Source: a virus. From it: a DNA stretch of 20,845 bases. The notes under the pieces are model-generated. The model had not been told where the DNA came from and searched no databases. It saw only the letters and a list, made by a program, of their open reading frames with translations. This document shows, piece by piece, positions 952 to 20,845 of this stretch; positions within the stretch are counted from its first letter, which is position 1, and the number at the start of each line of letters is the position of its first letter. The stretch covers positions 1 through 20,845 of the IMG/VR virus record IMGVR_UViG_3300021343_000069; one strand, given 5' to 3'. A program made the translations under genes and the position numbers.

Positions 952-1043
952 GCAACATGAACGACGTGCTGCGCAATTGCCAACAAATGCAACGTTATGC
1001 TGAGCCGTTCCGTCTTGAGCAGCATTTAGGAGGTGGCCTGTGA
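948..1043 (+). CDS. 31-codon bridging ORF between regulator and transposase
   Basis: ATG at 948 overlaps the previous stop by four bases (ATGA), and its TGA at 1041-1043 overlaps the GTG of the transposase by four bases (GTGA). The predicted peptide begins MSNMNDVLRNCQQMQRYAEP and ends in HLGGGL. The transposase ribosome site GGAGGT (1029-1034) lies inside this ORF. The exact fit at both ends suggests a translated leader that couples regulator and transposase translation, or a real micro-protein. No family is recognised, and a chance short ORF remains possible. Confidence 0.4.
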   Translation: MSNMNDVLRNCQQMQRYAEPFRLEQHLGGGL

Positions 1044-3166
1044 AGGAGTGGTATAGCGCGGCAGAGCTGGCTGGTTTGCCGGAAATGCCAGGCACAGAAA
1101 GGGGCGTGAAAAAAGCCGCCGTTCGCGAGGCGTGGGGCAGCCGAAAGAGGAAGCGGGGAAAAGGCGTTGAGTACTGTATCAGCAGCCTGCCCGCTGCCAC
1201 TCAGGCTGCGCTTGTGAAACCGCTGCAATCGGCACAGGCGCCTGCCAAACCCGCAGCGGTTGTCAACACCAGCGAATCCCTCTGGTTGCGCTACGAGCAG
1301 GCCCCGGGCTCCATGAAAGCCGAAGCCCAGCGCCGCCTGCAGGCGTTGCAGCTTTGTCAACGTTTGATAGAGCTGGGCAGCGCAAAGAGCGTTGTGGTCA
1401 ACCAGGTGGCGGAGGAGTATGCCACCAACCGGGCCACGCTTTATCGCTGGGAGAAGGCGGTCAAGGCTTACCATGCGAGCGATTGGCTGGCGGTGCTGGT
1501 GCCCCGTTACACCGGGCGCACCAAGGGCGCTGATTGCACCCCGGCAGCCTGGGAATTTTTTAAAGCCGACTTTTTACGCCCGGAAAAACCGACTTTAACG
1601 GCCTGTTACGAGCGCTTAAAACGCGCGGCCCAGGAGCACGGCTGGGAGATCCCGGCAGCGCGCACGATCAACCGCTGGTCCCAGGAGCGCATCCCGCTCA
1701 CGGTGACTATTTTAAAGCGTGAAGGTGAGCATGCCCTGATGCGTCGCTACCCCTCACTGGAGCGGTCGGTGCGTGATCTGCATGCGCTGCAATGGATCAA
1801 CGGCGACGGCTATCAACACAACGTCTTTGTGCGCTGGCCCAATGGCGAGATCGCGCGGCCGAAGACCTGGTTCTGGCAGGACATCTACAGCCGCAAAGTT
1901 CTGGCCTATCGGGTGGATACCACTGAGCACACCGACCAGATTCGCCTCTCCTTCGGCGACCTGGTGGAGCAGTATGGCATCCCGGAGCACGTCACCATCG
2001 ACAACACCCGCGCAGCGGCCAACAAGTGGATGACCGGCGGTGTCGCCAACCGCTACCGCTTTAAGGTGAAAGACGACGATCCCTTGGGTCTCTTCCCCTC
2101 CCTCGGCATTCAGATTCACTGGACCAGTGTGATCGCGGGCAAGGGCCACGGCCAGGCCAAACCCATCGAGCGCACCTTTGGCGTCGGCGGCCTGGGCGAG
2201 TACGTGGACAAACACCCGGCCTTCGCCGGCGCCTACACCGGTGAGAATCCCATGGCCAAGCCTGACAACTACGGCGATAAAGCCGTTCCGTTGGAGGAGT
2301 TTCTGCAGCGTTTGAATGAGGAAATTGTGGAATGGAATGCGCGGACAGCGCGCCGCACCGAGATCTGCGCGGGCAAACGGAGCTTTGATGAGGCCTTTAA
2401 CCACAGCTATGCGGCCGCCCCCATCCGCAAGGCCACCGCCGAGCAGCGCCGCCTATGGCTGCTGAGCGCGGAGGCGGTGACCGTGAAAAACGACGGCACC
2501 TTTACGCTGGAGGCCGGCGCCAAGGTCGGCGGCGGCCGCAACCGCTACTACGCCCCAGAGCTGCAAGCCCTGGGCGAGGCGCGGCAAAAGATCATTGTGC
2601 GCTTCGATCCGGCCAGCCTGCATGAATCCATGCACTGCTACACCTTGGATAACCGTTACATTGCCGAGGCGCTGATTATGGATAGCGCGGGCTTTGGCGA
2701 TACCCATACCAGCCGTGTGTATAACCGTACTCGTAAACAATTTATCAAAGCCCAGAAAGAGGCGGCCAAGGCGGAGGTGTCCATGACGACGCTGGAAGTC
2801 GCCGCACAGTTGCCGGCGCCGAGCCTGCCCGATCCGGTAAGCAATAAAGTGTCCCGTATCGGCGGCCACGCGCAGCAGATAGAGCCGCCAGCCCCGAAAC
2901 CGGCCGAACCCAGTGCGGCCGTTGTTGAAGCGCAAGCGCGTGCCGAGCAGCAACTGGCAGAGATCTTAACCCTAAATCAGCAACCCAAGCTGGAGGAGGA
3001 AACCGACGAGCAACGCTACCACAAATGGCTGGCATTGGATGAGCGTGTCCAAGCCGGACAGCAGTTGGAGGGCCGGGAGGCCATCTTCTACGACACGTTC
3101 CAGGACACACCACAATTCAAGACGTACAAGGATTTGGCGGCCATGGGCCTGTTGCAGCAGGCCTAA
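1040..3166 (+). CDS. A: Mu-type DDE transposase (MuA)
   Basis: A 708-residue homologue of MuA (663 residues in Mu), which pairs the phage ends, nicks them and joins them to target DNA in the transpososome. Residues 1-60 form the Mu-type winged helix that binds the internal activating sequence (WYSAAELAGLPEMPGTERGV). Residues about 70-235 are the end-binding I-beta/I-gamma region. The RNase H-like core follows with D256 in INGDGYQHNVFVRWP, D321 in VTIDNTRAAANKW and E377 in GKGHGQAKPIERTFG. The spacing, 65 and 56 residues, is nearly that of Mu D269-D336-E392, so the catalytic triad is intact. The Mu_transpos_C beta-barrel covers about 470-570. The C-terminal Ala/Pro/Glu-rich tail, as in Mu, should contact the B protein and ClpX. 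GTG start with GGAGGT six bases upstream. Confidence 0.97.
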   Translation: MKEWYSAAELAGLPEMPGTERGVKKAAVREAWGSRKRKRGKGVEYCISSLPAATQAALVKPLQSAQAPAKPAAVVNTSESLWLRYEQAPGSMKAEAQRRLQALQLCQRLIELGSAKSVVVNQVAEEYATNRATLYRWEKAVKAYHASDWLAVLVPRYTGRTKGADCTPAAWEFFKADFLRPEKPTLTACYERLKRAAQEHGWEIPAARTINRWSQERIPLTVTILKREGEHALMRRYPSLERSVRDLHALQWINGDGYQHNVFVRWPNGEIARPKTWFWQDIYSRKVLAYRVDTTEHTDQIRLSFGDLVEQYGIPEHVTIDNTRAAANKWMTGGVANRYRFKVKDDDPLGLFPSLGIQIHWTSVIAGKGHGQAKPIERTFGVGGLGEYVDKHPAFAGAYTGENPMAKPDNYGDKAVPLEEFLQRLNEEIVEWNARTARRTEICAGKRSFDEAFNHSYAAAPIRKATAEQRRLWLLSAEAVTVKNDGTFTLEAGAKVGGGRNRYYAPELQALGEARQKIIVRFDPASLHESMHCYTLDNRYIAEALIMDSAGFGDTHTSRVYNRTRKQFIKAQKEAAKAEVSMTTLEVAAQLPAPSLPDPVSNKVSRIGGHAQQIEPPAPKPAEPSAAVVEAQARAEQQLAEILTLNQQPKLEEETDEQRYHKWLALDERVQAGQQLEGREAIFYDTFQDTPQFKTYKDLAAMGLLQQA

Positions 3167-6459: not shown

Positions 6460-7081
6460 GCAGCTAATCGCCAAAATCCATATCGCCAAGAAAGAGCTGG
6501 TCCTGGATGACGAGACCTACCGGCAGGCCCTACAGGGGGTGACCGGCAAGGCCAGCTGTGCCGGCATGTCCAACGCCGAGCTGGAGCGGGTGTTGGCCCA
6601 CTTCAAGCAGTTGGGTTGGCGGCCGTCCCGAGCCGCTGGCCGCCGATACAGCCCCAAATCCCGAGATCGCCAGACGCATGACCAAGTGGATGTGATCCGG
6701 GCGATCTGGATCGACATGTACCAAGCTGGGGCCATCGACAATGGCTCCGAGGCGGCACTGGACGTCTGGGTCAAACGTACCACCAGCCGGCTCAACAAGG
6801 GCGCGGGCGTGGCCAGGACGGAGTGGTTGCGGGGCAACCATCATAGGCTCGCCACCAAAGTCCTGGAGAGCTTGAAGCAGTGGCAGGCCCGTATTCAGGT
6901 CCAGTGGAAAAACGAGGACTTGCGCCGCATCTCCCAGGAGCAACAGCGCACCGATCAGCACCAAACGGTGGTCATCCGGCAGCTGCTGGAAGCTGGCGGT
7001 ATTTTCTGGTGGCCGCTGTTTGGGGAACTGGGTATCGAATACCAGGAGGGCTATTGCCGTGACCGCCGACAACTACTCTGA
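6452..7081 (+). CDS. gemA: GemA-like regulatory protein (DUF1018)
   Basis: A 209-residue protein with the GemA/DUF1018 signature. The start is IAKIHIAKKELVLDDETYRQAL, then GVTGKASCAGMSNAELERVLAHFKQLGW (residues 28-56), then a basic linker and a second helical region with VIRAIWIDMYQAGAIDN and a DVWVKR--- RLN segment, followed by EWLRGNHHRLATKVLESLKQW. In Mu, GemA (gp16) changes host gene expression and DNA supercoiling through effects on gyrase-related functions, although the mechanism is poorly known. Here the core is followed by an extra tail of about 50 residues (QWKNEDLRRIS to the end). ATG 6452 is five bases from GGAGGT (6441-6446). The 3' end overlaps the Mor/C gene. Confidence 0.88.
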   Translation: MRKQLIAKIHIAKKELVLDDETYRQALQGVTGKASCAGMSNAELERVLAHFKQLGWRPSRAAGRRYSPKSRDRQTHDQVDVIRAIWIDMYQAGAIDNGSEAALDVWVKRTTSRLNKGAGVARTEWLRGNHHRLATKVLESLKQWQARIQVQWKNEDLRRISQEQQRTDQHQTVVIRQLLEAGGIFWWPLFGELGIEYQEGYCRDRRQLL

Positions 7082-7493
7082 GGAGCAGCTGGATATCCTG
7101 GGGAGCGACAGCTACACCGAGTCGCTGCTGTCGCACCTGGATGAGGTGCCGGCGGAGGAGATCCGCAGCCATTGGCCGCAGGACGCGGCCGCGCTGCTGG
7201 ATATCTTCACGGCCCGTCTGACCTCCAGCGGGGCTGAGCCTGAAGTGGCGGTCAAACAGGCCATCAAGCTGCTGGCCGACGCCGCCGAGTACGGCGGGGG
7301 CCGCAACTGGTATCTACCCACCAAGGAAAGCTTGCTGCAACAGCTGCGGGACCAGCAAATCTACCGGGACAGCCGCAAGATGCAGGTGCGCGACCTGGTG
7401 AAGAAGTACAAGCTCAGCGAACCCCATATCTACCGCATTATCAAGCGTCAACAAAGTCTCTTCATCAAACGCCGTCAGGGCGATCTTTTTTAA
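7059..7493 (+). CDS. mor: Mor/C-family middle or late transcription activator
   Basis: 144 residues from the GTG at 7059, chosen because AGGAGG (7044-7049) lies nine bases before it; the frame is open further upstream to 7020 without a ribosome site. The Mor/C signature is clear: GGGRNWYLPTKESLLQQLRD (residues 79-98), then IYRDSR and a helix-turn-helix VRDLVKKYKLSEPHIYRIIKRQQ (110-132). Mor and C of Mu are dimeric activators that bind dyads near -40 of the middle and late promoters and recruit RNA polymerase. Only one member of the family is seen before the late genes, so it probably activates the late operon directly. It is the last gene of the early transcript; a terminator follows four bases after its stop. 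Confidence 0.93.
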   Translation: MTADNYSEEQLDILGSDSYTESLLSHLDEVPAEEIRSHWPQDAAALLDIFTARLTSSGAEPEVAVKQAIKLLADAAEYGGGRNWYLPTKESLLQQLRDQQIYRDSRKMQVRDLVKKYKLSEPHIYRIIKRQQSLFIKRRQGDLF

Positions 7494-7497
7494 CCAG

Positions 7498-7521
7498 GGC
7501 TCTTGTATTAAGAGCCTTTTT
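7498..7521 (+). terminator. intrinsic terminator after the activator gene
   Basis: GGCTCTT (7498-7504), loop GTATT, AAGAGCC (7510-7516), then five T's (7517-7521). This is a perfect 7-bp stem with a U-tract, placed directly after the Mor/C stop. It should end the early operon and keep early transcription out of the cargo and late genes. Confidence 0.9.
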
Positions 7522-7854
7522 CGCGTCAAAACAAACCTTTGTTTGATAAATGAACACTGGTGTGTTGACCGGCTATCTAAAATGCTCGGTCTCGTGGGCG
7601 ATTGATGTGATTGGCCGATTTACCAATTCTGGGTTTGATAAATAAGCTTCGGCTTACAGATACCTAAGTTAATTGGTGGTTGGTCATAAAATAAGCGGCC
7701 ACAGTCATCTATATAAAAAATGTTTAATATACGATTTAATAGTGCCACTACATATTGATTTAGGTTGTTGAATATTGGTAATTCCAGTATATATTTTACT
7801 CATGCCAAACAGTTTGCAGCTCTACTCAACCTAGCTTTGCTTGGAAGGTAAAAA
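7522..7854 (+). promoter_or_regulatory. AT-rich regulatory region with dyads and a UUCG hairpin before the SIR2-like gene
   Basis: No gene is seen in this 333-bp stretch, but it is rich in signals. A perfect dyad AAACAAA-CC-TTTGTTT lies at 7529-7544 and could be an activator or operator site. The 11-mer GTTTGATAAAT occurs twice, at 7541-7551 and 7633-7643. ACCAATT (7622-7628) and AATTGGT (7671-7677) are perfect complementary arms enclosing a TAAGC-TTCG-GCTTA hairpin (7643-7656), whose UUCG loop is a very stable RNA tetraloop. A candidate host promoter is TTGTTG (7765-7770) with TATATA (7788-7793) after 17 bases, or TATATT two bases further on. GGAAGG (7843-7848) is the ribosome site of the next gene. 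The function of each element is inferred. Confidence 0.5.
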
Positions 7855-10332
7855 ATGAAGCGTTCAGAATTAAAAGGAATAAAAGTTAAAAATAGTTACG
7901 ATAAGGATTCCTTAGAATCAGTGATATCTAAAGTGTATGCTGAAAATACCTTATTGTTTATTGGTGCAGGTTTCTCTCTAGGAAGTAAAGATCAAACAGA
8001 GGAATCTGTACTGCTAGCCAAAGATCTATCAATAAAAATATGTAAGCTAGGTGATTTTGACGAGGATGAAGATCTGGCGTACTCTGCAGATTACTATCTT
8101 AAATACCATGACGCTAGTGCGCTGATCGGATTGCTGAAAAATTGTTTTACTGTCAAAGATGTGTCTCCATCCCACGAAAAAATTGCGCGAGTAAACTGGC
8201 GTCGAGTCTACACTACAAACTATGATAATTGCTTTGAGTTAGCCTCGGGTAAGGTTGGAAAAGTTATATCGCCAATTACGCTTGAGGACAGTCCAGCTAA
8301 ATACTTCCGTAGTCGGGATATATGCATACATATCAATGGGGCAATTCAGCTCCTTGATAATGAATCTCTAGAAAAATCGTTCAAATTAACTGAATCATCC
8401 TATACGAACTCTGATGCATTTTCAGATTCTTCATGGGCATATCGCTTCAAAAAAGACCTGGAGGTTTGTAGTCAGATTATATTTGTCGGTTACTCACTAT
8501 ATGATATGGAGATTAAGCGGCTACTAATAAGCAATGAAGCCATAAAAGGAAAAACATTTTTTGTTACTAGGGAAAATGTTTCAAATAAGGAACATCATAG
8601 GATTTCCTCGTTCGGCGAGGTTTTTCCTATTGGTATAAATAAATTTGCAGAGCTTATAGAGAAAAATAAGCCAAAAGAACTACCTAAAGGTATTGATTAT
8701 CTGTCCTCCCTGCAGAGAGAAGAGATAAAGTATGAGGCGGAGTTTAGCGATTCTGATGTAAGAGATTTTTTGCTTCGAGGGAAATTAAATTCCGATTACA
8801 TTGCGTCATCTTTGACGTCGGATAATGACACTTATGCAATCAGAAGAAAACAGATTTCTGAGTCATTGGATATTTTTAATTCAACTAATATCATTGTTAT
8901 CCACGGTGCTTTGGCAAACGGTAAAAGTGTTTTAGCGAGGCAAATCGCATCGCAACTTCTTCTTGAAGGTAAGCTTGTGTATACAGTTAAAGATGAAGAG
9001 GCTGATTATGAGGCTGATATAGAAGCTTTAGCCAATCTAAATCAAAAGGTGTATTTACTAATAGATGACTTTGAGCGGAGCCTAGATGTCGTCAGGTATT
9101 TTTCCTCCTGTTTGGCAGATAATGGTAAGATGATACTAACAGAGCGCCCTCATCGTTATAGACGTGCAATGACGAAATTGACTGAGTACGGTTTAAGTTG
9201 CTATTGCATAAATGTTGACTATCTGCATGAAACCGAAGTTAAAGAACTGGCTAATATTTTGTCTAACACAGGTTTGTGGGGCGATCTTGGGGGCGATAGC
9301 TGCGACAGGCAAATTCGATACCTAACCGAGAGATGTGAGTCGCAAATATCGATAGTATTATTGAATTTATTAAAATCTTCCCATGTGTTGAGTAGGTTTC
9401 AGTCCGCATTCTCAGAGATTCTAAAATATCCAGAAACAAAAAAAGCGGTTTATGCGATCTGCCTCATACAACACATTTATCCTTCGGCATGTAAAAAAAG
9501 TTTCATCTCAGACATTGCAGACTCCAATCATGTATATAGTAAGGATTTCGATGACCGTGTTCTCGGATCGGGACTTTTTGAATTTAGAGGTGATAGCTTA
9601 GTTACTCGTTCTTCTATTTTTGGCACATTTATTTTGAGTAGCCTTTATAGGGCAAGTTATTCAATAGATCAAATGGTCAGAATTGTTGAAATGCTGCAGC
9701 GGAGAAAGTCAACTAGAACTGTTGAAGAAAGCGAGATTTATCGGAGTATTATGACCTTTGGTACTTTGTCTGCAATACTGCCAGACGATAATAAATCGAA
9801 TTCCTATATGCAGTTTTATGAAAAAGTTAAGTCTGCAGTTCCATCTGTTACCTACAATCCTCACTACTGGTTGCAATATGCAATGGCCGTAATGAGTGAC
9901 GACAATCTGTCGGATGCGGAAATTATTCTTAAGACTGCTTATTCTAAAGCTGAAAATAATCCCGATTACGATACAACTTATATTGATAACCAGTTCGCAA
10001 GGCTTAATCTTAAGAAGGCGATTTCAGAAAAAGAACAAAGTATAAGTATTGAGTACTTCATGGAAGCACATAGAATTCTAAGAAGAGAAAGAAATGATAT
10101 CTACAAATTTAGGCAGGCCGGATTGTATTTGCCTTATTATGATGAGATGTACAAAAATCTTTCGAGAAAAAATAAAGTAAATTTTGAACACGCATTAAAG
10201 GAAATTACAGAAGATTTTAAAAGGTTTGTTGAGACGGAGTACCCTTACGGTATCATTCCTCCTTTTCAGGAGAAAATTCTAAGTGATTTTGAGGGTGCTA
10301 TTGACGAAATAAAAAATAATAGAGGTGAGTAA
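7855..10332 (+). CDS. SIR2-like / P-loop NTPase protein, probable anti-phage effector
   Basis: An 825-residue protein with an N-terminal SIR2-like domain: FIGAGFS (NAD-binding GAGxS, residues 35-41), TTNYD (120-124), IHINGA with the likely catalytic His at 159 in place of the usual HG motif, and FVGYSLYD (210-217). It is followed by a P-loop NTPase: Walker A HGALANGKS (350-358), Walker B VYLLIDDFE (399-407), and an arginine-rich ERPHRYRR (430-437) as possible sensor. The C-terminal third (about 640-800) is helical and TPR-like. SIR2 domains fused to STAND-type or related ATPases are known in defence systems such as Avs5-type proteins, where phage sensing triggers NAD+ depletion. I infer that role here; the exact family is not identified. 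The gene is far more AT-rich than the phage core, has its own candidate promoter, and sits between terminator and late operon, as a moron does. Confidence 0.82.
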   Translation: MKRSELKGIKVKNSYDKDSLESVISKVYAENTLLFIGAGFSLGSKDQTEESVLLAKDLSIKICKLGDFDEDEDLAYSADYYLKYHDASALIGLLKNCFTVKDVSPSHEKIARVNWRRVYTTNYDNCFELASGKVGKVISPITLEDSPAKYFRSRDICIHINGAIQLLDNESLEKSFKLTESSYTNSDAFSDSSWAYRFKKDLEVCSQIIFVGYSLYDMEIKRLLISNEAIKGKTFFVTRENVSNKEHHRISSFGEVFPIGINKFAELIEKNKPKELPKGIDYLSSLQREEIKYEAEFSDSDVRDFLLRGKLNSDYIASSLTSDNDTYAIRRKQISESLDIFNSTNIIVIHGALANGKSVLARQIASQLLLEGKLVYTVKDEEADYEADIEALANLNQKVYLLIDDFERSLDVVRYFSSCLADNGKMILTERPHRYRRAMTKLTEYGLSCYCINVDYLHETEVKELANILSNTGLWGDLGGDSCDRQIRYLTERCESQISIVLLNLLKSSHVLSRFQSAFSEILKYPETKKAVYAICLIQHIYPSACKKSFISDIADSNHVYSKDFDDRVLGSGLFEFRGDSLVTRSSIFGTFILSSLYRASYSIDQMVRIVEMLQRRKSTRTVEESEIYRSIMTFGTLSAILPDDNKSNSYMQFYEKVKSAVPSVTYNPHYWLQYAMAVMSDDNLSDAEIILKTAYSKAENNPDYDTTYIDNQFARLNLKKAISEKEQSISIEYFMEAHRILRRERNDIYKFRQAGLYLPYYDEMYKNLSRKNKVNFEHALKEITEDFKRFVETEYPYGIIPPFQEKILSDFEGAIDEIKNNRGE

Positions 10333-10521: not shown

Positions 10522-11145
10522 ATGAATGAAGAGTTTAACCCAGTTGAAGTTTGGATGTATTACGGCTTGTCAGATCTTTATTTTGGTTGGAAAAATCAGG
10601 AGTATAGCATTCATCGTTACGGGACCTTCTTTTATATAATGGCTGCCGAAAAGCATTTAAAGTCGGTTTTGATATGCTCCAATGCGAAGGAGTACGAAGG
10701 GAAAGGCTCTGTCGACGAAAAGAAGCTTGCCGTGGAAAAGATAGCTAAAGGATATTCGCATAATTTTAAGAAAATGATCAATGATGTTGGTTCGATATAT
10801 TATAAAGAGATGCATAAAAGGTTTGTCGACGATAGTCATCTAGGCTTCGAGTCAGAAATAATAATTAAGGCTATGGTTGAAGGCTATATGGAAACTCGAT
10901 ACCCAAGTCTGAAAACTACCTCAAGGCATTTCCCAGTGAAGAGTCACCCTAATGTTTACCATGATCCCTTGGGGTCATCGTTTTTTACTGAGTTTGTCGA
11001 AAGATTGTGCATTCAATGCTGGAGTTGTTTGGTGAAAAAAGGATTAAATGCAGCAGAAGTCCTCTCAAGGGTTAGGGTGAGGTTTTCTAATAATGAAGAT
11101 TTTGGTCGATTCGAAAGCTTATATTTTGAGAGATTGAATGTATAG
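10522..11145 (+). CDS. unknown AT-rich cargo protein with HEPN-like features
   Basis: A 207-residue protein, ATG with AGGTGG (10508-10513) eight bases upstream. No family is certain. Visible features: a helical N-terminus with YGTFFYIMAAEKHLKSVLI (residues 33-51), GYSHNFKKMI (77-86), and VEGYMETRYPSL (119-130). The order AAEK-LK ... HN(L/F)-K(M/L) ... RYP recalls HEPN-domain proteins, in which such helices form the four-helix bundle of RNases and toxins. A clear catalytic R-x4-6-H is not obvious; K141-x-H or R-x-F-P-V-K-S-H (135-142) would be candidates. HEPN genes commonly accompany defence or toxin systems, so a link to the upstream SIR2-like gene is plausible. It shares that gene's low GC and is separated from it by 189 bp, so it may be an independent moron. 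Confidence 0.55.
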   Translation: MNEEFNPVEVWMYYGLSDLYFGWKNQEYSIHRYGTFFYIMAAEKHLKSVLICSNAKEYEGKGSVDEKKLAVEKIAKGYSHNFKKMINDVGSIYYKEMHKRFVDDSHLGFESEIIIKAMVEGYMETRYPSLKTTSRHFPVKSHPNVYHDPLGSSFFTEFVERLCIQCWSCLVKKGLNAAEVLSRVRVRFSNNEDFGRFESLYFERLNV

Positions 11146-11294: not shown

Positions 11295-11822
11295 ATGAAA
11301 ACACATCCCTACTCCAAAGTCTTTGAAGCCGCCTTTCGGCACCTGCTGGAGCTTGAAGGTGGCTATTCTGATGACCCCGATGATCGCGGTGGCCAAACCA
11401 AATACGGTATCTCCAAGCGAGCCCACCCCGATGTCGACATTCCCAACCTAACTCTTGGGCAAGCCAAAGCCATTTATTGGCAATCCTATTGGTGCGCCAA
11501 TCACTGCGACAAACTATCAGAGCCGTTGGCCTTGGCGCTGTTTGACGGCGTGGTCAATCACCGGGCCAAGGTTGCCCGCAAATTGCTGCAGCTTGCATTG
11601 AGCGTCAATCCCGACGGCATCTTGGGGCCGGTGACATTATCCACTGCTGCTAGTGCGGATTGCAAACGGGTAATCGCCCGTTACTTTGCCGGCCGCGCAA
11701 ACCTCTACCGGGAAATTATTGCCGCCAACAGCAGTCAGGCAAAGTTCGCTTACGGCTGGTTTAAGCGCCTTTTTAAAGTTCAGCAATACATCCTGGAGGA
11801 ATGCTGGCCATGGCACCCTTAG
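11295..11822 (+). CDS. GH108 endolysin with PG_binding_3 domain
   Basis: A 175-residue peptidoglycan-degrading enzyme. The N-terminal GH108 domain (residues about 10-98) carries the signature LELEGGYSDDPDDRGGQTKYGIS with the catalytic Glu at residue 21 (EGG). It continues with LTLGQAKAIYWQSYW and ALALFDGVVNHR. The C-terminal part, from about 100, has the PG_binding_3 pattern LLQLALSVNPDGILGPVTLSTA and RANLYREII, ending in a Trp-rich tail. There is no signal peptide, so release depends on the holin-like protein encoded next. It is the first gene of the lysis cassette and acts at the end of the lytic cycle on the cell wall. Its 3' end overlaps the next gene by 13 bases. Confidence 0.92.
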   Translation: MKTHPYSKVFEAAFRHLLELEGGYSDDPDDRGGQTKYGISKRAHPDVDIPNLTLGQAKAIYWQSYWCANHCDKLSEPLALALFDGVVNHRAKVARKLLQLALSVNPDGILGPVTLSTAASADCKRVIARYFAGRANLYREIIAANSSQAKFAYGWFKRLFKVQQYILEECWPWHP

Positions 11823-17041: not shown

Positions 17042-17311
17042 CTACCAATTGCGATCTGGTTTGTTCAGCCAATCCGCGCAATCGAAATTGCTAGCGGCCC
17101 AGATTCTCTGGAGTTTGGCAACAAACACAGTGTCTCTAGCATAAACTTTTGATTTGAGATCGTCACGAATGTTGGTAATAGATTGAATTGTGTCTATGAA
17201 CCACAAAGACTCCATTTTTTTGCAATGTGGGAAGGTGTTTAAATAATCGAAAAGCGCGCTGTAATTTTTTTCAGGCGCTGTTAGATCGTAGGTGACGCAA
17301 TAAATTGCCAT
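17042..17311 (-). CDS. stand-alone Cas2/SinR-like small protein, antisense moron
   Basis: An 89-residue protein on the strand opposite to all late genes, between portal and MuF. It begins MAIYCVTYDLTAPEKNYSAL, then FDYLNTFPHCKKMESLWFID, a VYARDTVFVAKL strand and ADWLNKPDRNW. The first strand ending in an aspartate (YCVTYDL, D9) followed by a helix and a 'S-W-(I/F)' strand is the layout of the Cas2/VapD ferredoxin-like fold, and it strongly resembles short proteins annotated as 'SinR family' in bacteria. Cas2 uses the equivalent Asp for metal binding; related toxins such as VapD are RNases. No cas1 or CRISPR array is nearby, so an adaptation role is unlikely. A small nuclease, toxin or anti-phage factor is possible. 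No obvious Shine-Dalgarno is seen upstream of the ATG. Confidence 0.62.
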   Translation of the reverse strand: MAIYCVTYDLTAPEKNYSALFDYLNTFPHCKKMESLWFIDTIQSITNIRDDLKSKVYARDTVFVAKLQRIWAASNFDCADWLNKPDRNW

Positions 17312-19671: not shown

Positions 19672-19706
19672 ACTAGGGTTAATAGATTTTAAGGATAATG
19701 CCTGCC

Positions 19707-20573
19707 ATGACGAATACCCCCTCCAGCGTTTCAAAGTTCTGCTTTTACTATGATGGTGAAGACCATAGAGATCATGAAATGAACATTCTTGCGTTGGGGA
19801 AATCCCTTACTGCCTTGGGCAAAACCATATATGCAGCCAATGGGGTGCTAAATGGCTATAAGGACGATGCAAGAATAGATGTAAGGGTTAATGCTGACTT
19901 TATTGAGGGGTCATTCGGTGTAGAAGTTGAAATCTTCCAGTTTCTGCACAATGCTAAAGATGTGGTGGTTGCGTTAGGGCTGACCGCTGTTAGTGGAGGC
20001 GGCTTGCTTGCAGTAGTCGATTGGTTAAAAGGTAAGCAAATAGATGTTATTGAAAAGACTGGAGATGGGAAGTCCGTTATAAAGGTCGGTTCAGAAGAGC
20101 TTAATTGTGATGAAGATATTTCTAAGCTTGTTGCTGATAATCAAGTCAGAAAGTCATTAGAGCAGTTTATATATGAGCCATTGTTGAATGAGGGAACAGA
20201 TACCTTTGCCGTTAAAGGAACAAGACGGGATACCGTCGCCGCTGTTGAAATTAACAAGGAGCATGCTGAGTATTTTAAAGCACCTACGAGAACAGTAAAA
20301 GATAAAGTGGAAGGCAAAGAGAGCGAGGCGAAAGTTCAATTTGTCAACGCTAGTGTGGCCAAAAAAGCTGGCTGGAAAATGATATACAAGGGTGAAGAGT
20401 ATTCAGTTAGGATGAATGATGAAGCTTTCTTGGCTCGCCTTCAGAATATGGAAGAGGCTTATGTATTTGGAAAGACCTTTAACGTGAAGCTTAAAGAGAT
20501 TAAAACAACATCTTCTAGTAGTGAAAGGATTCGTTATGAAATTTCAAAAGTGCATCATAGGTCAATGGGCTGA
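19707..20573 (+). CDS. unknown AT-rich cargo protein, possibly DUF7946-like
   Basis: 288 residues from ATG 19707; ATG 19698 in the same frame is only two bases from AAGGA, so the later start is preferred. The N-terminal part, FCFYYDGEDHRDHEMNILAL, GKSLTALGKTIYAANGVLNG, IDVRVNADFIEGSFGVEVEI, has the 'DG---H-M----L---L-A-----A---L-G----I-V-V-----GSF----' pattern of a hypothetical family scattered over phages and genomic islands; I believe it is the one called DUF7946, from memory only. A hydrophobic stretch VVVALGLTAVSGGGLLAVVDWL (about 86-107) could be a membrane segment. The C-terminal half is Lys/Glu-rich with FVNASVAKKAGWKMIYKGEE. The function is unknown. Its AT-rich composition, own -10 box and location between gpG and the expected protease mark it as horizontally acquired cargo. 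Confidence 0.6.
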   Translation: MTNTPSSVSKFCFYYDGEDHRDHEMNILALGKSLTALGKTIYAANGVLNGYKDDARIDVRVNADFIEGSFGVEVEIFQFLHNAKDVVVALGLTAVSGGGLLAVVDWLKGKQIDVIEKTGDGKSVIKVGSEELNCDEDISKLVADNQVRKSLEQFIYEPLLNEGTDTFAVKGTRRDTVAAVEINKEHAEYFKAPTRTVKDKVEGKESEAKVQFVNASVAKKAGWKMIYKGEEYSVRMNDEAFLARLQNMEEAYVFGKTFNVKLKEIKTTSSSSERIRYEISKVHHRSMG

Positions 20574-20593: not shown

Positions 20594-20845
20594 ATGCTAA
20601 ACCTTATTGCGATCCTAATTGGCGTTGTAATATTGCTGGTGACATTGTTCATTCTCGGCTTTGTCTCCTTTCGTTTTGCTCTTAGCTATTTCCTAGGGGA
20701 AAATATCACAGTAACAGTGATGGATGAGTTTGGTCACAAGAGGTCTAGGCGCTTTAATTGCAGTCGGGATGAGGAGTTAGTCAAGGTTATTGATGAACTG
20801 AAGCAGCAGACGAGGCGACAGCGAAAAATGAGGGCGGCTCAGTGA
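20594..20845 (+). CDS. small inner-membrane protein of unknown function
   Basis: 83 residues, 20 bases after the preceding gene and with no clear ribosome site, so translation may depend on the upstream gene. A strongly hydrophobic N-terminus (LNLIAILIGVVILLVTLFIL and FVSFRFALSYFL, about residues 2-34) forms one long or two short membrane helices. The rest, ITVTVMDEFGHKRSRRFNCS then ELVKVIDELKQQTRRQRKM, is a small soluble domain of two strands and a basic helix, expected in the cytoplasm. Proximity and shared composition suggest an operon with the 19707 gene, perhaps sensor/effector and membrane partner. No family is recognised. The stop codon is the last base of the window, so what follows is unseen. 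Confidence 0.6.
   Translation: MLNLIAILIGVVILLVTLFILGFVSFRFALSYFLGENITVTVMDEFGHKRSRRFNCSRDEELVKVIDELKQQTRRQRKMRAAQ

Follow-up and report, generated by a model that had tools for sequence, protein, structure and literature searches.

The Mu-like carrier and its cargo site

The window, by which the whole stretch of DNA analysed is meant, is a virus record of 20,845 bases that ends within head genes. As judged by PHROGs and Pfam matches, the carrier is a Mu-like transposable phage, with genes for a repressor, a MuA-type transposase, a MuB-like ATPase, a Mor activator and a GH108 endolysin, and on the head side for the small and large terminase, the portal, a gp30-like head protein and a neck/gpG protein. 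The portal is ~50% identical to those of Pseudomonas Casadabanvirus-type phages, e.g. JBD30 and JD024. An avs5-like gene and an orphan open reading frame (ORF) occupy the interval between the Mor and endolysin genes, and the features that define this cargo site are as follows.

1040..3166, + strand: MuA-type transposase (E 4e-181), by which the carrier is recognised as Mu-like and transposable
7020..7493, + strand: Mor/C-type late transcription activator, which bounds the cargo site on the left
7496..7524, + strand: terminator-like hairpin directly 3' of the Mor gene (z -2.87), which sets the cargo apart from the middle operon of the phage
7855..10332, + strand: avs5-like gene; SIR2-like NADase domain at residues ~17-270, nSTAND NTPase at ~329-466, helical/TPR-like sensor C-terminus at ~500-825
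10522..11145, + strand: orphan ORF of 207 aa, GC 0.38, in the same AT-rich cargo block as the avs5-like gene; putative partner
11295..11822, + strand: endolysin (GH108 and PG_binding_3), which bounds the cargo site on the right

The initial annotation proposed a comparison of the same locus in Mu-like phages, and this revealed that the interval holding the avs5-like gene is enlarged. Mor and the endolysin or holin gene are 3.8 kb apart in the window, as against often 0.1-1.4 kb in Mu-like relatives, where the interval often holds one small AT-rich ORF. The Mor-endolysin interval of Mu-like phages is thereby indicated as a cargo site. In three of the Mu-like relatives (L022, L023 and L025; e.g. 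L023:7955-9420), the Mor-to-lysis region includes two lower-GC genes on the reverse strand, for products of ~174 and 314 aa, and the longer of these products matched nothing in Pfam or PADLOC.

Because a good terminator-like hairpin ends the Mor gene, its position suggests that the cargo is transcribed separately from the Mor operon. The avs5-like gene was also said to have a promoter-like sequence of its own, but this has no statistical support, as 11 promoter-like matches were found in the cargo block and 11.3 are expected from shuffled sequence. An Rfam scan of the window returned no RNAs.

The avs5-like ORF begins with ATG, is preceded closely by a Shine-Dalgarno-like GGAAGG and runs for 825 codons without an internal stop, the chance of such a stop-free run at the base composition of the gene being ~1.5e-28. 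Its GC content is 0.37 and its GC3 0.33, as against 0.53-0.62 and 0.59-0.80, respectively, for most other phage genes in the window and a GC content of about 0.58 for this Mu-like phage as a whole, which confirms the description of an AT-rich gene within a GC-richer phage. As most copies of Avs5 have a low GC content (0.26-0.38, in contigs of 0.32-0.51), the AT-richness can be regarded as a trait of the family.

The 207-aa product of the orphan ORF has no match in Pfam, PHROGs, PADLOC, phages, plasmids, viral contigs or 395 genomes of one order, and no relative beside any other Avs5 locus examined. A single-sequence model of it is mostly helical with poor confidence (pLDDT 43.5), and a fold search with this model was empty; a HEPN-like first half had been suspected by eye, and for these reasons no such claim is made. 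A 208-aa protein encoded next to avs5 in Pseudoalteromonas sp. SMS1 (locus L002) was considered as a counterpart and discarded, being an unrelated LysE transporter.

Domain architecture and relationship to Avs5

The 825-aa product of the avs5-like gene consists of an N-terminal SIR2 domain, an nSTAND NTPase and a helical-repeat C-terminus. In Pfam, SIR2_2 (PF13289) matches residues 117-233 (E 2e-12, 47.8 bits versus a cut-off of 24.5), nSTAND_NTPase5 (PF25199) residues 329-439 (39.8 bits, cut-off 34) and nSTAND3 (PF20720) residues 332-466 (30.5 bits, cut-off 27.2), and an AlphaFold2 model is helical from ~498 to 822. The ORF, the Pfam matches and the model thus bear out the initial annotation as to an intact reading frame in which a SIR2-like domain is joined to a P-loop NTPase and a helical C-terminus. 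The profile search that it recommended matched both SIR2 and STAND profiles above the cut-offs, and its remark that an obvious STAND signature is lacking does not hold. The motifs are located as follows.

7963..7977, + strand: GAGFS, residues 37-41, NAD binding, conserved among relatives
8212..8226, + strand: TTNYD, residues 120-124, with catalytic N122
8329..8340, + strand: HING, residues 159-162, in which N161-G162 corresponds to the sirtuin HG as its NG variant
8905..8928, + strand: Walker A GALANGKS, residues 351-358, with invariant K357
9055..9075, + strand: Walker B region LLIDDFE, residues 401-407
9145..9147, + strand: invariant R431, at a spacing that matches R438, the arginine-finger candidate of PaAvs5-1
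9817..9876, + strand: Y655, W672 and Q674, counterparts of the conserved Tyr, Trp and Gln at the Avs5 ATPase-repeat hinge

These catalytic and ATP-binding motifs are intact; GAGFS, TTNYD, HING, GALANGKS with K357 and LLIDDFE, together with GYSLYD at residues 212-217, lie at the residues at which they had been read by the initial annotation. In an alignment of 11 sequences, N122, D124, G162, K357, R431, Y655 and W672 are invariant and Q674 is nearly so. Three distant relatives (L088, L100 and L101) read HLHG in the columns where the window protein reads HING, and the alignment thus assigns N161 to the place of the canonical HG histidine, with H159 two residues upstream. H159, at which a mutant had been proposed, is therefore off that position, and the change should be made at N161 instead.

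The identity of the protein was apparent from comparison with solved structures. A phmmer search of PDB sequences gave 9jap_A as the best match (E 2.8e-130, query residues 17-823), and the next matches (9v0g, DSR2 and KomC, at 1e-10 to 1e-7) extend over the SIR2 domain only. The AlphaFold2 model, built from 11 natural sequences (mean pLDDT 82.8, pTM 0.57), likewise had 9jap, 'Helical structure of EfAvs5(SIR2-STAND)', as its first Foldseek match (E 4.5e-50, probability 1.00), followed by 9nc9, 'Helical assembly of AVAST5 filament', and the structure prediction that had been advised thereby placed the protein with a SIR2-STAND. The full-length TM-score to 9jap is low (0.38), though the alignment covers the whole chain; to judge from the model, the AlphaFold monomer and the filament probably differ in how their domains are arranged.

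EfAvs5 of Escherichia fergusonii (PDB 9jap) can be aligned with the window protein over the full length and shares its three-part architecture, the NG (HING) motif, the GNGKS-type Walker A and the hinge Y, W and Q. An E. coli plasmid protein (L004), which is a near-identical match to 9jap, has 32% identity with the window protein, and through it the identity to EfAvs5 is put at ~32% and the length at 849 aa, similar to the 825 aa found here. The two proteins differ in an insertion of ~15 residues in EfAvs5, absent from the window protein after residue 68.

Avs5 comprises SIR2 (PF13289), nSTAND3 (PF20720) and C-terminal repeats, and PaAvs5-1 of Pseudomonas aeruginosa requires N110, D112 and E202 of SIR2, G362 and K363 of Walker A and the C-terminal helices, with a partial loss of protection in R438A (PMC12931631). 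About half of the Avs5 homologues have NG where sirtuins have HG; PaAvs5-1 retains part of its activity as N153H and none as N153A or N153Q, and Tyr661, Trp675 and Gln677 are conserved at its hinge (PMC12931631). The window protein resembles PaAvs5-1 in its order of SIR2, nSTAND3 and helical repeats, in the NG motif, and in a conserved Arg and a Y / W-x-Q at similar spacing, the correspondence of N122, D124, N161-G162, K357, R431, Y655, W672 and Q674 being based on motif identity and spacing. The Walker B differs, with a canonical LLIDD in the window protein versus a single acidic residue (IIFIE) in PaAvs5-1. The trigger of PaAvs5-1 is JADA, which has no known bearing on the window protein.

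The features of an Avs5 are accordingly found together in one chain: a SIR2 domain with GAGxS and TTNxD, an nSTAND3-type NTPase with Walker A and B, a helical-repeat C-terminus with the hinge Tyr and W-x-Q, the HG/NG motif, and homology over the full length to a characterised Avs5. A distinct subtype, which had been suggested on the basis of the ATPase part and of HING, is not borne out on those grounds, as nSTAND3 and nSTAND_NTPase5 are present and the length is normal for Avs5; HING does stand in place of HG, but as a published Avs5 variant it is no sign of a separate subtype.

Sequence branch, carriers and database coverage

A maximum-likelihood tree of 19 relatives places the window protein on a branch of its own with the proteins of Pseudoalteromonas sp. 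SMS1 (64% identical) and Desulfospira joergensenii (L003, 56%), with a support of 100/100 and a long stem. The three align end to end and share their motifs, and the latter two genes are surrounded by ordinary genes for metabolism and transport, outside any recognised phage. The window protein is EfAvs5-like, being ~30-34% identical to the EfAvs5-like proteins of plasmids and prophages. Since tested members of different Avs5 clades share only 18-21% identity (PMC12931631), these values place it most probably within or beside clade 3, that of EfAvs5, in the four-clade Avs5 tree.

The gene is sporadic, with matches at 1e-10 in 4 of the 395 genomes sampled from one bacterial order. Among plasmids, 69 records have a relative, 13 of them with 80% coverage. 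Eleven relative loci were found in IMG/VR with an alignment as query, and none among viral contigs searched with the single sequence; 50,697 phage records and 80 Mu-like loci fetched by their transposase were likewise devoid of relatives of the window protein. EfAvs5-like genes with a GC content of 0.31-0.32 lie between replication gene A and the portal gene in P2-like prophages (L094:9875-12382, L095:7481-9988 and L098:9739-12288). Hotspots of P2-like phages and P4 satellites are known to hold NLR-like and SIR2-STAND genes (PMC9122126), and plasmids and P2-like prophages are the usual setting of mobile defence genes. EfAvs5 itself has such plasmid or P2-like prophage carriers, whereas the window protein is found in a Mu-like phage and on a separate branch of the tree. 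Avs5 as a family had been described before, and what is new is confined to the carrier and the sequence branch; a Mu-like transposable phage hence joins plasmids, P2-like prophages and chromosomes as carriers of Avs5.

In the comparison with PADLOC that had been recommended, models of ThsA and Dsr1 match the SIR2 part only, and no Avs5-named match was obtained; an NCBIfam search did not name the window protein either. As L004, nearly identical to the solved EfAvs5, was missed as well, the silence of PADLOC reflects a gap in the library. In a comparison of L004:5902-8451 with PADLOC-DB 2.0.0, no model recognised the EfAvs5-like branch by name. The PADLOC 2.0.0 models thus miss the EfAvs5-like part of Avs5, and EfAvs5-like genes have probably been missed in PADLOC surveys.

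Proposed function and further insert-like genes

The proposal of a SIR2-STAND/Avs5-like defence effector that would deplete NAD+ is well supported at the sequence level by the full-length EfAvs5 match, the retained Avs5 motifs and the phage-cargo context. The preferred reading, with a probability of about 0.9, is that the window protein is an Avs5 (AVAST type 5, SIR2-STAND) which a Mu-like temperate phage carries among its accessory genes and which acts as an NAD+-hydrolysing abortive immune receptor. Its most likely function would be prophage-borne abortive NADase immunity against superinfecting phages, in which the loss of NAD+ probably arrests or kills the infected cell. NADase activity and phage defence have been demonstrated for PaAvs5 (PMC12931631), and activation of Avs5 depends on filaments, as cited in PMC12700824 and as the titles of 9jap and 9nc9 reflect; from the Avs5 proteins studied we infer sensing, filament formation, NADase activity and defence for the window protein. 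In the lysogen, the protein would be kept inactive until a protein of an incoming phage binds to the C-terminal helical repeats. With ATP bound by the nSTAND ATPase, the protein would then assemble into filaments, whereupon the N-terminal SIR2 domains would hydrolyse NAD+ and the infection would be aborted. The gain for the carrier would be that the resident prophage or lysogen and its sister cells are shielded from competitors.

A narrower role is possible, if rather unlikely, in which the protein is an Avs5 by descent that serves mainly in superinfection exclusion among related transposable phages and is triggered by a component of Mu-like phages, e.g. a structural protein. The gene is indeed phage-carried and inserted near late genes, and defence genes of prophages often act on competitors (PMC9122126). 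However, the closest relative, in Pseudoalteromonas, has no adjoining recognised phage genes and the neighbours of the Desulfospira copy are metabolic too; this location outside a phage context indicates that the family is not specialised for the Mu-like phage type, and a trigger from relatives of the carrier would risk self-activation. Quite improbable is a two-gene system, in which the 207-aa protein would be a co-sensor, or a brake that silences Avs5 during multiplication of the carrier. The two genes are on the same strand and in one AT-rich block between Mor and endolysin, with GC contents of 0.37 and 0.38, but they are 190 bases apart, no relative of the 207-aa protein turned up near the other Avs5 loci or in the phages, plasmids, viral contigs and 395 genomes, and both EfAvs5 and PaAvs5 function as single genes (PMC12931631).

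A passenger ORF that is decaying or goes unexpressed, and has no function at present, would agree with an upstream promoter-like sequence no better than chance and with a composition that points to foreign origin. Against this are the 825 open codons, the intact catalytic motifs, the ribosome-binding-like site, and relatives that align end to end at 56-64% with the frame kept, which make such a passenger very improbable. Another SIR2 effector, such as DSR1/DSR2 or ThsA, is next to excluded. The SIR2 part does match the PADLOC ThsA models (E 7e-10) and the DSR2 and 9v0g PDB chains, but these matches span the SIR2 domain only (~20-234) and are ~120 orders of magnitude weaker than that to EfAvs5, and the STAND domain exceeds the Pfam cut-offs. 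DSR2 has a similar SIR2 NADase effector logic and, in the fold search, a related overall architecture, but its sequence similarity is confined to SIR2. DSR1/DSR2 were rejected, as only residues 33-234 align and the Dsr1 model matches 117-220 at E 0.0035, and so was ThsA of Thoeris (SIR2 followed by SLOG), whose models align only within residues 18-224, the remainder being nSTAND and helical repeats.

An extension of the Avs5 reading is that the branch of the window protein, Pseudoalteromonas and Desulfospira is an Avs5 lineage with its own sensor range, and that the orphan 207-aa protein controls the receptor so that the Mu-like phage replicates without self-triggering; this combination is a long shot. 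Were the gene active, it would become testable to which phage proteins this branch of Avs5 responds, and by what means a phage can harbour a suicide receptor for phages and not set it off itself.

Other insert-like genes are present in the same phage. An AT-rich gene for 291 aa (19698-20573, + strand, GC 0.41) matches the PADLOC phage-defence candidate PDC-S42 (E 3e-45) and phrog_3243 (9e-59), and the one relative of its product in phage records (27%) is in a tailless Vibrio phage; no literature on PDC-S42 was found. The gene lies directly 3' of the neck/gpG gene, which is the place of AcrF1 and an HTH gene in JBD30, and is from its sequence a candidate defence gene at the position of an anti-CRISPR locus. 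It is followed by an 83-aa ORF (20594-20845, + strand) with a hydrophobic N-terminal segment. A third insert-like spot lies between the portal and gp30-like genes, where a small AT-rich gene (17042-17311, - strand, GC 0.41) belongs to phrog_1090 of unknown function.
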